DNA of 64,000 nucleotides from Listeria monocytogenes. GTDB lineage: Bacteria; Bacillota; Bacilli; Lactobacillales; Listeriaceae. Position numbers and translations under genes: made by a program. The notes under the pieces are model-generated. The model ran no database searches. It saw only the letters and a program-made list of their open reading frames with translations, and was not told the DNA's origin. The DNA lies in assembly GCF_041765605.1 (NCBI RefSeq), contig NZ_CP168900.1, positions 946,001 through 1,010,000 on the forward strand. The letters are read 5' to 3'. Shown one piece after another: positions 27,577-34,671 of the stretch; the first letter of the stretch is position 1, and every line of letters begins with the position of its first letter.

Positions 27577-28323
27577 TTATTTCCATTCCTTATATAATTC
27601 GGCCAGAGTCGCTTTATTTATTCCATCACATGCTTCAAGTCGGACGAAAATTTGCTCCACAAGTTCAGGCGGGAGTTTTCTCCGGAAATAAAGCAATTGA
27701 TTCTCAAACAAACTATAGACAACTAAATTATACGGGATTTCTCGTTTTTCAAGTAATCCTAAAAGCGTCTCTAAATACCACTTTTTATCTGGATAATCTT
27801 CTAATAGTTCCAGTAATTGTTTTGTTTTTTGCACATTGCTGGAAGCGAGAATTTGATTTAATTTTTTTATCGGAAATTGTTCCGCGAAATCGGTAGGAAA
27901 GGGACTAAAGTACAATTCCTCTATAAATGTAGCAAACGTTTCAGCAACAATAAGTGTTTGTAACGTTTCAAAATCAACATAAATAATACTGGGTTCGGTC
28001 GTAATATCTATATAGGAAAAACCAAGATAACGCGATTCATCCCGGTGGAAATAAACTTGCTTCCCTGCGAGATCAACATCCTTTTGTTCCGGAATATCCG
28101 TTAAAATTTCATCCAAACTAGCCAGATAATAGATTTCACCAAAATCCAGCCCATAAGAAGTCGGTTCCGTCGTCTTAAAATGATTTTTGCGAATCAATCC
28201 ACCATTTTGCTCTGATAAAAGCTGTTTGTATTCAAATGGTAAAGTGACACCTAACGCTATTTCTTTTTCACGAATTGCTTGTTCCGTTGCGCCATTCTTT
28301 TCGTTTTTAACCCAAATCGTCAT
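27577..28323 (-). CDS. SMI1/KNR4 (SUKH) family protein
   Basis: A 248-residue protein with an N-terminal SUKH domain (about residues 10-140: KEIALGVTLPFEYKQLLSEQ, then NGGLI and the late FATFIEELYF) and a helical C-terminal extension (about 150-248). SUKH proteins often act as immunity proteins against contact-dependent or polymorphic toxins, but many are stand-alone with unknown roles. No toxin gene is adjacent. The start is ATG 28323, nine bases after GGAGGAG; a TTG at 28332 is too close to that site. It has its own promoter and precedes the phosphatase gene. Confidence 0.78.
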   Translation of the reverse strand: MTIWVKNEKNGATEQAIREKEIALGVTLPFEYKQLLSEQNGGLIRKNHFKTTEPTSYGLDFGEIYYLASLDEILTDIPEQKDVDLAGKQVYFHRDESRYLGFSYIDITTEPSIIYVDFETLQTLIVAETFATFIEELYFSPFPTDFAEQFPIKKLNQILASSNVQKTKQLLELLEDYPDKKWYLETLLGLLEKREIPYNLVVYSLFENQLLYFRRKLPPELVEQIFVRLEACDGINKATLAELYKEWK

Positions 28324-28418: not shown

Positions 28419-29387
28419 TTACTTCAAAAGATCTTGATAATAACTATTTCCATTCCGCGCATCAAACTTCGCTGTTAAAGCTTCCGTCATTTCCACCAAA
28501 TCAGCTTCTTTTTCTCGGTCGAAAAGAGGGTAGGCAGCTTGTAAGAAAATAAGTCGGTCTAAACCGCCTTCAGCTCTAAGAACAGTTTCTAGGTTAGTAT
28601 CAATCACTTCCCGTGCTTTTTCCGTTTGCTTGGTAAGGACTAAATATTTAAGTAATTGACCAAGTGGTGGTAGCAAGGTAATTTGTTTTTCCACAAGTGG
28701 ATAACCTTTATCAAAGCATTCTTGCGCCATTTTTTCATCTCCAAGTGCTAAATAAGCAAGCGCCATAGTTCCATACGTTAAATGAGGAACTTCCGCACAG
28801 CGTTGTTTTCCTTCAATAATCGGTTTTGCAGTTTTCTTGGCTGTTTCATAATCTTTAATGAAGCAATAATAAGAGACTTGATCGGTTTTTTCACAAGCTG
28901 GACAATCATTTAAAAAGTCTGCTTTTGTAGTACTCCATTTTTCAAATAGCTCTTTGGCTTTTTCAACATCGCCCATGCGCATGGCTGCAAGCGTGCACAC
29001 TTTATAATAAGGTCTTAGCGAATAATTTTCTTGTTCGAATTTCACCTTCATATCATTCAAAAGGCCGTCAATTTGCGCTTTCGATACTTCATCAAAAGTC
29101 GGGACATGTTCACTAATCCATTTATATTTCCAAAAAAGATCTTCCGTGTCAATGTAAGCATCACTATCTTTGTCTTCCCATTTTTTGATTAACCAGCTAA
29201 AAGCCTGTAATTGCTTTTTCGGAAACCCAGCTGTTAAACATGTGTCAATCAACAGATCACGTGCTTCAATGCCATCATCTATATTGTTATACAAATCTGC
29301 ACCAGCAATAATTCGTTCTAATACTTTTATTTTTTCAGGCGTGTCGTCCATTCCCCAAACTGATTCTAAATCATTCAAATAATCCAT
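28419..29387 (-). CDS. TPR-like protein, second of two tandem paralogues in the Hsp90-like operon
   Basis: A 322-residue all-helical soluble protein with SEL1/TPR-like repeats (for example MGDVEKAKELFEKW and LGDEKMAQECFDKGYPL) and no signal or membrane segment. A conserved CPAC motif (about 160-163) suggests a metal or redox site. Compared by eye with its upstream neighbour, residues after about 54 are near 88% identical while the first 53 are near 57%. The ATG follows GGAGGAAG, 26 bases after the first copy. I do not know a function; the operon suggests partners or clients of the Hsp90-like ATPase. Confidence 0.8.
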   Translation of the reverse strand: MDYLNDLESVWGMDDTPEKIKVLERIIAGADLYNNIDDGIEARDLLIDTCLTAGFPKKQLQAFSWLIKKWEDKDSDAYIDTEDLFWKYKWISEHVPTFDEVSKAQIDGLLNDMKVKFEQENYSLRPYYKVCTLAAMRMGDVEKAKELFEKWSTTKADFLNDCPACEKTDQVSYYCFIKDYETAKKTAKPIIEGKQRCAEVPHLTYGTMALAYLALGDEKMAQECFDKGYPLVEKQITLLPPLGQLLKYLVLTKQTEKAREVIDTNLETVLRAEGGLDRLIFLQAAYPLFDREKEADLVEMTEALTAKFDARNGNSYYQDLLK

Positions 29388-29413
29388 TTTTCTTCCTCCA
29401 GTTATATCTAAAT

Positions 29414-30406
29414 TTAATGTAAAATATTTTTATAAGCATTGAAGCTATCTTGATAATAACTATTTTCATTTCGTCCATCAAACTTCGCTGTTAAAGCCTT
29501 TGTCATTTCCAACAAATCAGCTTCTTTATCCGGATCGAAAAGAGGGTAGGCAGCTTGTAAGAAAATAAGTCGGTCTAAACCACCCTCAGCTTTAAGAACG
29601 ATTTCTAGGTTGGTATCAATCACTTCTCGCGCCTTTTCCGTTTGCTTGGTAAGGACTAAATATTTAAGTAATTGACCAAGTGAGGGAAGTAAGGAACTTT
29701 GTTTTTCCACAAGTGGATAACCTTTATCGAAGCACTCTTGTGCCATTTCTTCATCTCCAAGTGCTAAATAGGTAAGTGACATTATGCCATATGTCAAATG
29801 AGGAACCTCGGCACAGCGCTGTTTTCCTTCTATGATTTGTTTTGCTTTTTTCTTGGCCGCTTTATAATCTTTAATAAAGTAATAATAATGGACTTGGTCT
29901 TGTCTTTCGCAAGCAGGACAGTCATTTAGATAATCTTCTTTTGTAGTGCTCCATTTTTCAAATAGCTCTTTGGCTTTTTCAACATCACCCATGCGCATGG
30001 CTGCAAGAGTATACACTTTATAGTAAGGGCGTAACGAATAATTTTCTTGTTCGAATTTTATTTTCATATCGTTCAAAAGTCCGTCAATTTGTGTTTTCGA
30101 TACTTCATCAAAAGTTGGAACATGTTCGCTAATCCATTTGTATTTCCAAAGAAGATCTTCTGTATCAATATAAATATCGTTGTCTTCGTCTTCCCATTTA
30201 CTAATTAACCAACTAAAAGCTTGTAGCTGTTTTTTGGGAAAGCCGACAGTTAAACAAACTTCAATCAATATATCGCGAGCCCAACTGCCTTTTTCTACAT
30301 CATTATGCGCATCTGCCTCCGTAATCATTCGTTCTAAGACTTTAATTTTTTCAGGTGTATCTGCCATTGTTAAAATTGGTTGCTTATCTTTTAAGTAATC
30401 CATCAT
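29414..30406 (-). CDS. TPR-like protein, first of two tandem paralogues in the Hsp90-like operon
   Basis: A 330-residue TPR-like helical protein, the upstream copy of the pair. It keeps the CPAC motif in DCPACERQDQ and the repeat cores, and its C-terminus carries about ten extra residues (SFNAYKNILH). It starts only eight bases after the Hsp90-like stop (TAGGAG then ATG ATG, either possible), so translation is probably coupled. In eukaryotes TPR proteins serve Hsp90 as co-chaperones; an analogous relation here is inference only. Confidence 0.8.
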   Translation of the reverse strand: MMDYLKDKQPILTMADTPEKIKVLERMITEADAHNDVEKGSWARDILIEVCLTVGFPKKQLQAFSWLISKWEDEDNDIYIDTEDLLWKYKWISEHVPTFDEVSKTQIDGLLNDMKIKFEQENYSLRPYYKVYTLAAMRMGDVEKAKELFEKWSTTKEDYLNDCPACERQDQVHYYYFIKDYKAAKKKAKQIIEGKQRCAEVPHLTYGIMSLTYLALGDEEMAQECFDKGYPLVEKQSSLLPSLGQLLKYLVLTKQTEKAREVIDTNLEIVLKAEGGLDRLIFLQAAYPLFDPDKEADLLEMTKALTAKFDGRNENSYYQDSFNAYKNILH

Positions 30407-30414
30407 TTTGTCTC

Positions 30415-32220
30415 CTATAGCATCTCTAAGATTCGTAACATATTTTGATTCATTAATACCATTTCTTTCCGTTTAAGCGGATAATGCCCTAATAGTAAGG
30501 CTTGGATATAAAGTACATTCACAATCACGGACAATTCTTTCACTGTTTTTCCAGAAGTGAAAAGTCTTTTAATCAGCTCGTTATCCAAATTTAAATACAA
30601 GTGAGCAAGCGGTGCAGGTTCTTGTTCTTTTTGGATGCTCTCTAAAATATCACTAAAAACAGAATTCGTTTCTTCGACAGCACGTTCTAGTTCGCGTAAT
30701 TCTTGTGTTGCTGTAGAGTGGATGAAAATAATCGGTAAATCTTTCGGTTCAAAATGTTTAATTAATACATCTGTATCAAATTCAGCCATCATACTATTCA
30801 TTTCTGTCAAAATAGGTTGGTAAGCCTGTTCTTCGCTCACTGTCATAGGCCGTAATTTATTAGTCATTTCTTCCGGTTCGATTAAAACAAATTCTGTCCC
30901 CTCAACAAAGTAACTTAATTGCGCTAAGATTGGCGAATCATAGGAATAGCCGCCGTTAATAAGCGTCATACCGCTTGATCTCGCAATATCCTTAATTTGT
31001 CTAAAGTCATCGACCGAGTAGGTGTAATAGATGACATCATTTTTAGCGATAATATCACCTAATTTTTCCTCGCCATTCAAAGTCCGAACTGGAAGATAAG
31101 GATAGATTAATTTTAAAAATGGTGCATCTTCACTCGCAAGTGCTTTAAAACCAAGATAATGTGTAGCTAATAATTTCATCAATGCTTCTTCTGGAAGAGT
31201 TTCAATTCCTTTTTTCAAAGCAACGCCAAGCTCGTCGGCAACACTAGTTAACCGCTCATTTTTATAAAATGCTTCACGAGAAGCAACAGGTTGAAGCTCA
31301 TCCGTCCAAATCACACATTTAGCAAAAAACGACCAATCAGGCAAAATATTATTTGCTTCACTTGTGACATACATATTATTTAAAAATACCGTGTTCTTCC
31401 GGATAGCATTCATTTGAACAGCATGAGGAATCATATAAGCAATCCCAAACGTTCTTCCTGACTCATTTTCAATTAAGAAATAATCTTGGAAACGTGTTCC
31501 AAGGATATATTCGCCGTACTGAATAATTTGATCTTTTGATAGTTTAGACAAGGTTTCTTTATTGGAAAACTGTTTGGTCCAACTATTAATTTCTTCTTCT
31601 AAACCATTAATTTCTACTATTATATTACTTTCCAAAGAGGAACCATATTTTTTGAGTGTATTGATTAATTCTTCTACGTCCTCGCATTCAGGGTGCTCGT
31701 CTAAATCAGCTCGTAAGCGCAAATACACTTGTGTACCTGGTTCGCGAGTTTCCGTTTCTATTTTCCGAACCGAATAAGTTCCGTCCGCTTTTCCGCGCCA
31801 TTCTGTTGTATTACCATCTTTCTTGGAAGTGGAAATCATTACAATCTCATCACTAACAATAAAACAAGAAAGTAAGCCAATTCCAAAACGACCGATAAAA
31901 TCATTGGAACGCTCTCCATCAAAATCTTTTTCGCCTTTGGATGAATTAGCAATCGTTGCGAGAAAAGCGTGGACTTCCTCTTCGGTCAAACCAATTCCAT
32001 TATCTTCTAAAATCAAAGTTTTTTCATTTGTGTCACCTGTTAGAGACACGAGGATTTTTCCTTCTAAAGTTGGCGTTAATTTTTTTCTAGCGCGAATGGC
32101 ATCGGTTGCATTTTGTAGTAATTCGCGAATATAAACATCTTTTTCGTCATAAAGGTGGTTTGAGAGAATATCAATCATACCAGCCAAGTTCACCTGAAAA
32201 CGGTGAGAGTGATTTTCCAT
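30415..32220 (-). CDS. Hsp90-family ATPase, HtpG-like but divergent
   Basis: A 601-residue cytoplasmic GHKL ATPase. The N-terminal domain (about 1-210) has the Hsp90 Bergerat motifs: ELLQNATDAI (Glu33, Asn37, Asp40), EDNGIGLT (Asp73) and GRFGIGLLSCF (lid). The middle domain (about 225-420) includes LPDWSFFAKCVI and a region near VASREAFYKNE; the C-terminal part is short and weakly conserved. It lacks an MEEVD-type tail. It differs enough from canonical HtpG to be a separate HSP90-family branch. The ATG follows AGGAGG. It heads an operon with two TPR-like paralogues. Confidence 0.85.
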   Translation of the reverse strand: MENHSHRFQVNLAGMIDILSNHLYDEKDVYIRELLQNATDAIRARKKLTPTLEGKILVSLTGDTNEKTLILEDNGIGLTEEEVHAFLATIANSSKGEKDFDGERSNDFIGRFGIGLLSCFIVSDEIVMISTSKKDGNTTEWRGKADGTYSVRKIETETREPGTQVYLRLRADLDEHPECEDVEELINTLKKYGSSLESNIIVEINGLEEEINSWTKQFSNKETLSKLSKDQIIQYGEYILGTRFQDYFLIENESGRTFGIAYMIPHAVQMNAIRKNTVFLNNMYVTSEANNILPDWSFFAKCVIWTDELQPVASREAFYKNERLTSVADELGVALKKGIETLPEEALMKLLATHYLGFKALASEDAPFLKLIYPYLPVRTLNGEEKLGDIIAKNDVIYYTYSVDDFRQIKDIARSSGMTLINGGYSYDSPILAQLSYFVEGTEFVLIEPEEMTNKLRPMTVSEEQAYQPILTEMNSMMAEFDTDVLIKHFEPKDLPIIFIHSTATQELRELERAVEETNSVFSDILESIQKEQEPAPLAHLYLNLDNELIKRLFTSGKTVKELSVIVNVLYIQALLLGHYPLKRKEMVLMNQNMLRILEML

Positions 32221-32254: not shown

Positions 32255-32264
32255 ATTCTATCAT
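32255..32264 (-). promoter_or_regulatory. Extended -10 promoter of the Hsp90-like operon
   Basis: Minus strand TGA-TAGAAT (-10 at 32260-32255), about 35 bases before the ATG. No convincing -35. Confidence 0.45.
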
Positions 32265-32301
32265 AAAAGAAGAGATAAATAATGAGAAAACAATAATAGA
32301 T

Positions 32302-33540: not shown

Positions 33541-34671
33541 ATGACAAAGAAATTAGTAATCTGTATAAGTTTAATCGCGATATTTTTAAGCGGTTGTAGT
33601 TTTTCCGAACCATCAACGAGTAAATCGAACATTACCGAAAAAACATTGAATGGTGCAAGTTTTACATTTTTTGATGTTGGACAAGGTGATAGCACACTTA
33701 TCCAAGCAGAAGATGGTACAACTATTTTGATTGATACTGGTCGCCAAGATGATGACCGTATTTTAACCTATTTAAAAGAAGCGAATATAAAGAAAATAGA
33801 TTTGCTACTACTGACACACCCGCACGCAGACCATATCGGTAATGCTGATAAAGTAATCGCTACATACAAACCAAAAGAAATTTGGATGGATGGTTTAACT
33901 TTTTCTAGTAGTATTTACGAGAAAGTAATTGACGCGGCATTAGCTTCAGATGCCAAATACAAAGAACCGAGACGCGGCGAAAAAGCGACTTTTGGTCCAT
34001 TTAATCTAGAGGTTTTAAGCCCTGATAAACTGGAAAATGACGCAAATAATGATTCTATCGCTGTAAAAATCACCTATAAAGATATTTCCGCTATTTTTAC
34101 AGGTGACTCAGAAAAAGGCCGAGAAAGAGAAATGGTAGATAGCGGTGCCAATTTAGAAGCGGATATTTTAGATTTAGGGCACCACGGATCGTCCACATCC
34201 AACCAGCCATTTTTCCTAGATAAAGTAAAACCGCAAGTGGCTGTTTACTCTGCTGAAATGGCTAATAGTTATGGACATCCTCATGTGGAAGTGCTGGAGT
34301 GGCTAAAAGAGCGCGATATAAAAACATATGGAACAGATGTGAATGGTACGGTTATTATCGAAACCGATGGTGAAAAAATCCATGTGCAAACCGAAAAATC
34401 AGGTACACCAAAACCAGGTAGCAGTTATAATAAAGAAAATAGCACACAAAAAACAGAAGATGCAACATCCGAAGAATTACCAGAAAGCATTAATTTAAAT
34501 ACAGCATCTAGTGAAGATTTACAATTATTACCACTAATTGGGCCAGCGCTTGCAGAAAAAATTATTGCCGAGCGACCATATCAGTCCATAGATGACTTGA
34601 AAAAAATTAACGGCATTGGCGATGGCATTGTGCGCCAAATAAAAGAACAAGGCATTGCCGTAACAAAGTAG
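33541..34671 (+). CDS. Secreted lipoprotein with ComEC-like metallo-beta-lactamase domain and ComEA-like HhH domain
   Basis: A 376-residue surface lipoprotein. The signal peptide ends at the lipobox LSGC (Cys about 19). A ComEC/Rec2-type metallo-beta-lactamase domain follows (about 35-280) with LLLTHPHADHIGN, IFTGDSEK and DLGHHGSSTS, then a polar linker (about 280-315) and a C-terminal helix-hairpin-helix pair (INLNTASSEDLQLLPLIGPA, then NGIGDGIVRQI). This joins the nuclease-like domain of ComEC to the DNA-binding fold of ComEA on one anchored protein, suggesting extracellular DNA processing. Activity on DNA is inference. It has its own promoter; the DUF3006 gene follows nine bases on. Confidence 0.88.
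   Translation: MTKKLVICISLIAIFLSGCSFSEPSTSKSNITEKTLNGASFTFFDVGQGDSTLIQAEDGTTILIDTGRQDDDRILTYLKEANIKKIDLLLLTHPHADHIGNADKVIATYKPKEIWMDGLTFSSSIYEKVIDAALASDAKYKEPRRGEKATFGPFNLEVLSPDKLENDANNDSIAVKITYKDISAIFTGDSEKGREREMVDSGANLEADILDLGHHGSSTSNQPFFLDKVKPQVAVYSAEMANSYGHPHVEVLEWLKERDIKTYGTDVNGTVIIETDGEKIHVQTEKSGTPKPGSSYNKENSTQKTEDATSEELPESINLNTASSEDLQLLPLIGPALAEKIIAERPYQSIDDLKKINGIGDGIVRQIKEQGIAVTK

Follow-up and report, generated by a model that had tools for sequence, protein, structure and literature searches.

A divergent bacterial Hsp90 and a neighbouring tetratricopeptide repeat superhelix protein form a conserved gene pair and a candidate chaperone module in Listeria and distant bacteria

The stretch of Listeria monocytogenes DNA analysed here (64,000 nucleotides, contig NZ_CP168900.1, positions 946,001 to 1,010,000; hereafter the window) comes from a genome assembled as one contig of 2.98 Mb and encodes a divergent Hsp90 followed by two tandem copies of a tetratricopeptide repeat (TPR)-type protein, the partner. 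The Hsp90 is a member of an already known family, NF010683 ('HSP90 family protein'). So far Hsp90s of this type have always been found with a partner, while the converse is not always true, and the conserved unit is the Hsp90 with one or more TPR proteins (one to four copies). Judging from gene order, conservation and predicted structure, the TPR protein would probably be a dedicated co-chaperone or client adaptor of this deep bacterial Hsp90 paralogue, the two forming one module. Bacterial Hsp90 has been described as working with DnaK, with the remark that 'cochaperones are absent' (PMC6520445, 2019; this and all other publications are cited from the parts of their text that were available), and an Hsp90 conserved as a two-gene unit with a TPR partner of its own would alter this view. 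An earlier note on this DNA, made from the sequence alone, had called such an operon undescribed; in agreement, no description of the Hsp90/TPR pairing appears among the literature matches listed, which mostly leave out subscription papers and preprints. A bacterial Hsp90 cochaperone has reportedly been presented recently in Shewanella, although that report did not turn up in the literature search.

The curated equivalog model NF010683 (cut-off 455 bits) gives the window Hsp90 803.2 bits, and Pfam HATPase_c_3 matches it at 39 bits (cut-off 25), whereas the HtpG model NF003555 gives 164.9 bits, under its cut-off of 371; no match to PF00183 was obtained at E 0.1. The predicted Hsp90 fold, with its N-terminal (GHKL), middle and C-terminal domains, is complete in one chain. 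Ten positions of the ATP cycle, which include the catalytic glutamate, the Asn, Asp and Gly motifs that bind the nucleotide and the middle-domain arginine, are kept in 22/22 relatives of this Hsp90 and equally in 22/22 HtpGs, at a per-domain identity of 17-25% between NF010683-type Hsp90 and HtpG of the same genome. Both kinds are present in 22/22 other hosts checked. Listeria lacks HtpG: the NF003555 cut-off is reached in 0/60 related genomes, and the lone Hsp90 found in the Listeria genome is the NF010683-type one. The window protein is 97.8% and 94.7% identical to two L. monocytogenes records and 94% identical to that of L. marthii. Its gene lies 201 bp from fri, which fits the 202 bp reported between lmo0942 and fri (PMC3534079) and identifies it as lmo0942, a gene appearing in the available literature only in gene lists or tables (PMC10393277, PMC3534079). 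We infer that it probably belongs to HTPG Group C, the deep group of bacterial Hsp90 recognised by Chen et al. 2006 (PMC1525184), who noted a Group C copy in Firmicutes, included L. monocytogenes in their species list and reported two HTPG copies from different groups in S. coelicolor. The HtpG of S. hygroscopicus, considered as a possible characterised member of the family, does not bind geldanamycin (PMC3603443); the N92-equivalent position is Leu in one and Phe in two of the three Streptomyces Hsp90 members considered here.

The TPR-like nature of the partner, as first proposed, is supported by structure prediction. The Pfam TPR models remain under their gathering scores (best 22.4 against 25.7 for copy 1, 22 against 27 for copy 2), but AlphaFold2 predicts copy 1 (mean pLDDT 95) as a purely helical superhelix of 17 helices, built as an array of antiparallel helix pairs, and this model aligns with TPR-type proteins. 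The top-ranking structural matches are MalT domain III and APC/C subunits, which we take to be TPR-type, followed by Rap/NprR sensors among others. Peptide sensors of the RRNPP/Rap type consist of a TPR superhelix with a peptide pocket and an effector domain. Structural matches among helical repeats are common, and those of the predicted model say little on the function of the partner; no significant sequence match was found in PDB (best E 0.44). The partner carries a near-invariant cysteine/histidine signature. In an alignment of 50 partners (48 of 88 listed rows plus the two window copies) sixteen columns are invariant, including W66, W87, K90, C163, C166, C198, D310 and R312, and H203 is nearly so (at least 90%). 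Searched in loci L056-L139, whose partner frames of 300 aa or more number 92, stricter motifs gave [DN]Cx[AG]C[ED] in 91/92 and C-x3-P-[HQ] in 87/92; FDxRN was rejected as a universal mark, with only 46/92. In the model of copy 1, C163/C166 lie at the start of helix 164-177 and C198/H203 come after helix 181-192. This helix order suggests proximity and, together with the spacing C-x2-C-x31-C-x4-H, makes a metal site plausible. Selection signals have been reported for lmo0941, there a hypothetical protein (PMC6901971). The two window copies are 82% identical and diverge most in the first ~240 bases (67-78% identity per 60-base block, against mostly 80-92% in the rest), a pattern that would fit a diversifying N-terminal part.

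The conserved Hsp90-like/TPR-like neighbourhood that the earlier note had proposed to look for is kept in every locus of the main sample, which comprises the best 80 of 219 Hsp90 relatives (one genome per species) and four plasmid loci; the 84 loci come from Listeriaceae, Bacillaceae, Paenibacillaceae, Tumebacillus, Alcaligenaceae and Streptomyces. An iterated hidden Markov model detected a homologous partner adjoining the Hsp90 in 84/84 loci, although independent lineages are far fewer than 80 because most are Paenibacillus. The two frames overlap or lie within 27 bp (-49 to +27 bp) in 78/84 loci; longer gaps occur in L063 (57 bp), L064 (136 bp), L101 (183 bp, with a split partner frame) and L065 (270 bp), and L137 and L139 were left out of the range on account of calls that chose an overlapping upstream start. 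In the three Streptomyces loci the partner frames are larger (1033-1143 aa as called, two of the starts being over-called), and residues 24-293 of the L136 partner correspond to the same domain (226 bits), later parts having TPR matches over the Pfam cut-off. Directly after the pair, two Bacillaceae loci have a further gene (L060:7804-9150 and L065:8050-9414); the L060 protein matches DUF4026/DUF2314, and the two proteins start alike.

Presence and absence follow the same pattern. Among 60 related genomes, the window's own included, the Hsp90 occurs in 19 and the partner is adjacent in the same 19, with one TPR match in 12 and two to four in 7 (two of the four matches in G004 are partial pieces). 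Hence the two copies noticed originally are genuine in this locus, while their number is not general. Two tiny partner matches fall in related genomes without the Hsp90. One is negligible and the other (L041:1480-1785) is an ~83-aa N-terminal stretch in a Listeria genome with the look of a remnant, which suggests loss of an Hsp90/TPR module. In 398 Bacillota genomes the Hsp90 was found in 6 and the partner in the same 6 (four genera, own genome included). HtpG was found in 133, only 5 of which have a partner, namely those also having the NF010683-type Hsp90; the partner thus tracks this Hsp90 and not HtpG. At E 1e-100 the Hsp90 was called in 2 of 300 Burkholderiales genomes, G455 and G609, one of them being the centre genome chosen for having it, and both carry an adjacent partner.

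Both genes also share their history. Across the 22 genomes with both Hsp90s, the rank correlation of the NF010683-type Hsp90 distances is 0.93 with those of the partner and 0.52 with those of HtpG, and across 19 Paenibacillaceae the values are 0.85 and 0.10. Partial correlation given HtpG leaves 0.90 and 0.85, respectively, with 0/999 permutations as high. Quick trees of 31 Hsp90s and 38 partners, drawn from the window, L151 and 29 of the 84 loci, agree in putting the Alcaligenaceae pair with Listeria/Bacillaceae (SH-aLRT 100, the order within the group being open), and they contain several separate partner duplications and several long branches. A phage origin of the pair was considered and rejected. 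Scans of IMG/VR yielded no relative with the partner profile and just 2 partial loci with the Hsp90 profile; remote members could be missed, as both scans start from short peptide patterns. Among the matches in the phage collection, the unannotated 'Listeria phage' pieces (97-98% identity to the Hsp90, 85-88% to the partner) would represent packaged host DNA. MT837560.1, filed as phage, carries a pair like that of Streptomyces behind a reading frame resembling a sigma factor by eye, and was taken for a piece of actinobacterial chromosome. The PHROG families phrog_32952 and phrog_34905, which also match, may derive from records of this sort. Prevotella Lak megaphage records encode a protein resembling Hsp90 (~25% over half of the query).

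The pairing recurs, since a second Hsp90-like + TPR operon exists in gamma-proteobacteria, where it is annotated only as 'ATP-binding protein' plus 'hypothetical' or 'tetratricopeptide repeat protein'. In the Salmonella record the Hsp90-like protein obtains 286 bits with NF010683, under the cut-off, and a 769-aa protein with weak TPR matches begins 2 bp on. This two-gene stretch is present in 149/5426 E. coli genomes (77.6% identical in ten listed rows), and the second pair is also found in P. aeruginosa and Xanthomonas vasicola. A CxxC is invariant in the 4 aligned TPR proteins of this operon. Homology of these proteins with the Listeria-type partners was tried and rejected as not significant (hhalign probability 1.6), though the alignment overlays both CxxC. 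The idea of a bacterial Hsp90/TPR operon with a dedicated partner, put forward from the window alone, is supported by the recurrence of the NF010683-type pair in distant bacteria.

If the TPR protein acts as co-chaperone or adaptor dedicated to it, the NF010683-type Hsp90, distinct from HtpG, would run an ordinary ATP-driven clamp cycle, and both proteins would be made from one transcript. The partner may dock on the divergent middle/C-terminal part of the Hsp90 by a non-MEEVD interface, act on it from there and influence the choice of clients. The C-x2-C...C-x4-H site could bind a metal ion that pins the middle repeats, or else sense the redox state. With partner genes duplicated in tandem, as in Listeria and some Paenibacillus, a single Hsp90 would be served by several interchangeable adaptors. 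Several observations weigh against this proposal. Linkage alone yields correlated distances, so that the shared history shows a unit of inheritance and not contact. Partner-type proteins also occur without this Hsp90, so the partner may have another role or another Hsp90: in a reverse search of Burkholderiales centred on G609 the partner profile matched 3/290 genomes (G609, G511 and G720), and in G511 and G720 the partners carry the whole signature with no Hsp90 within ~3.6 kb around their genes. The handles of G511 and G720 are those of the 300-genome Burkholderiales sample, in which no Hsp90 match at E 1e-100 came from any genome but G455 and G609. An Actinomyces oris plasmid encodes a partner-type protein of 1011 aa (178 bits) with the cysteine signature, with no Hsp90 in the 12.8 kb around it nor elsewhere on the plasmid (E 1e-60; plasmid only), and within 4 kb of a Nonomuraea copy of the second-kind TPR gene no Hsp90 was matched. 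Moreover, remoter partners could escape a profile made from Bacillota sequences and two from Alcaligenaceae.

Conserved adjacency fits a dedicated client too, and this is the main rival: a signalling or regulatory superhelix of the Rap/NprR/MalT kind would need its own Hsp90 to fold or switch. We regard it as rather unlikely, given that structural matches of that kind are common and that the partners found without Hsp90 would be orphan clients. That the pair is a mobile two-gene cassette of stress or housekeeping genes, co-transcribed and with no direct contact, is improbable. Inspection of 11 loci by eye did show differing flanking genes, and both members of the pair seem to have travelled jointly across phyla, but a partner kept in all the Hsp90 loci, mostly in overlapping or abutting frames, is more than idle linkage should keep. 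An anti-phage defence module, suggested by the earlier note and favoured by the SUKH neighbour and by the partial likeness of the Hsp90 GHKL domain to PADLOC TmtA (E 3.3e-15, residues 16-189 against a 1655-position model), is very improbable, as the locus is of chromosome type, adjoining fri in L. monocytogenes, and the 2023 PADLOC library (newer systems not covered) finds nothing for the TPR proteins; of the 10 proteins encoded nearby nine have no match and the tenth only metallo-beta-lactamase-type partial ones, leaving no convincing defence gene.

In the window the Hsp90-like gene, the 8-base gap, the TPR-like gene and its tandem copy were all found where the earlier note had placed them, with 26 bases between the copies (Table 1). 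The order in L. monocytogenes NCTC7974 is fri, HSP90 family protein, two hypothetical proteins (the partners), SMI1/KNR4, phosphatase and lmo0937-family protein. The candidate promoter is weak because 27 such sites occur in the scanned region against 16.8 expected, and the hairpin scan over 5 kb gave 6 matches against 2.9 expected in shuffles. Upstream of the operon there are no exact CIRCE or near-CtsR heat-shock boxes; the intergenic stretch does contain PerR-like boxes, at its fri end. The SUKH gene beyond a terminator was likewise recovered, the terminator as a consensus match. By similar protein starts, SUKH is seen downstream in L057, L058 and L061 and not in the Paenibacillus rows, no systematic or profile search having been made, and it was not retained as part of the unit, since it stands only beside some Listeria pairs and behind the terminator-like hairpin. 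Positions 33541-34671 encode a metallo-beta-lactamase-fold protein, Lmo0945 by the gene order in PMC3534079, whose partial PADLOC matches (LmuA, Avs1a, PDC-M48B, RTasMBL) were taken as generic.

Table 1. Features of the window and of related loci (window positions unless a locus is named)
Feature	Position	Strand	Remarks
Divergent Hsp90, NF010683/PRK14083 type	30415-32220	(-)	601 aa; orthologue of lmo0942
TPR superhelix partner copy 1	29414-30406	(-)	330 aa; lmo0941 as judged from gene order
TPR superhelix partner, tandem copy 2	28419-29387	(-)	322 aa; lmo0940 as judged from gene order
Cys/His signature of copy 1, C163-x2-C166...C198-x4-H203	29798-29920	(-)	candidate metal or redox site
Terminator-like hairpin	28412-28378	(-)	16-pair stem; consensus match only; may close the operon
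Candidate operon promoter TTCTCA-17-TATGAT	32260-32288	(-)	9/12 consensus positions, weak
SUKH gene	27577-28323	(-)	above Pfam cut-off; beyond the terminator-like hairpin
Partner-type TPR genes without adjacent Hsp90	L180:1123-2259; L181:1219-2259; L142:5881-8916		two Burkholderiales genomes, one Actinomyces oris plasmid
Second Hsp90-like + TPR operon	L178:4962-9109; L184:6001-10144; L183:3054-7295; L182:3102-7325		Salmonella, E. coli, P. aeruginosa, Xanthomonas plasmid

A wider generalisation is offered tentatively: bacteria might possess dedicated TPR co-chaperones of Hsp90 on at least two lineages of its paralogues, one being the NF010683 clade, which reaches from Listeria to Streptomyces, the other the gamma-proteobacterial clade of E. 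coli, Salmonella, Pseudomonas and Xanthomonas, in the form of a metal- or redox-gated superhelix that dispenses with a MEEVD tail. If true, the alliance of Hsp90 with TPR proteins would not be a eukaryotic invention. The pair itself provides a simple two-protein system for TPR/Hsp90 co-evolution and suggests a testable role for proteins of Listeria, Paenibacillus and Streptomyces that are so far unnamed and just 'hypothetical'.

Among known systems, the window Hsp90 resembles Group C HTPG in being of the NF010683 type, but the TPR partner goes unmentioned there, 'operon' and 'TPR' each occurring 0 times in the available text of Chen et al. 2006 (PMC1525184). It differs from HtpG, whose model it matches at 165 bits under 371 and whose genomes mostly lack the partner. 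The gamma-proteobacterial pair has the same arrangement, an Hsp90 paralogue and then, within 1-36 bp, a TPR-type protein of 764-774 aa with a CxxC, although its Hsp90 is 23% identical to that of the window and stays under the NF010683 cut-off. Eukaryotic Hsp90 is served by TPR co-chaperones such as Hop, FKBP51 and PP5, which have carboxylate-clamp residues in the TPR groove. The eukaryotic mode of TPR binding, which the earlier note had evoked, is not supported here, as a MEEVD-like end occurs in 0/84 Hsp90 C-termini, and the Listeria-type partner is a whole-protein superhelix with a Cys/His signature; the two share a TPR superhelix accompanying Hsp90.

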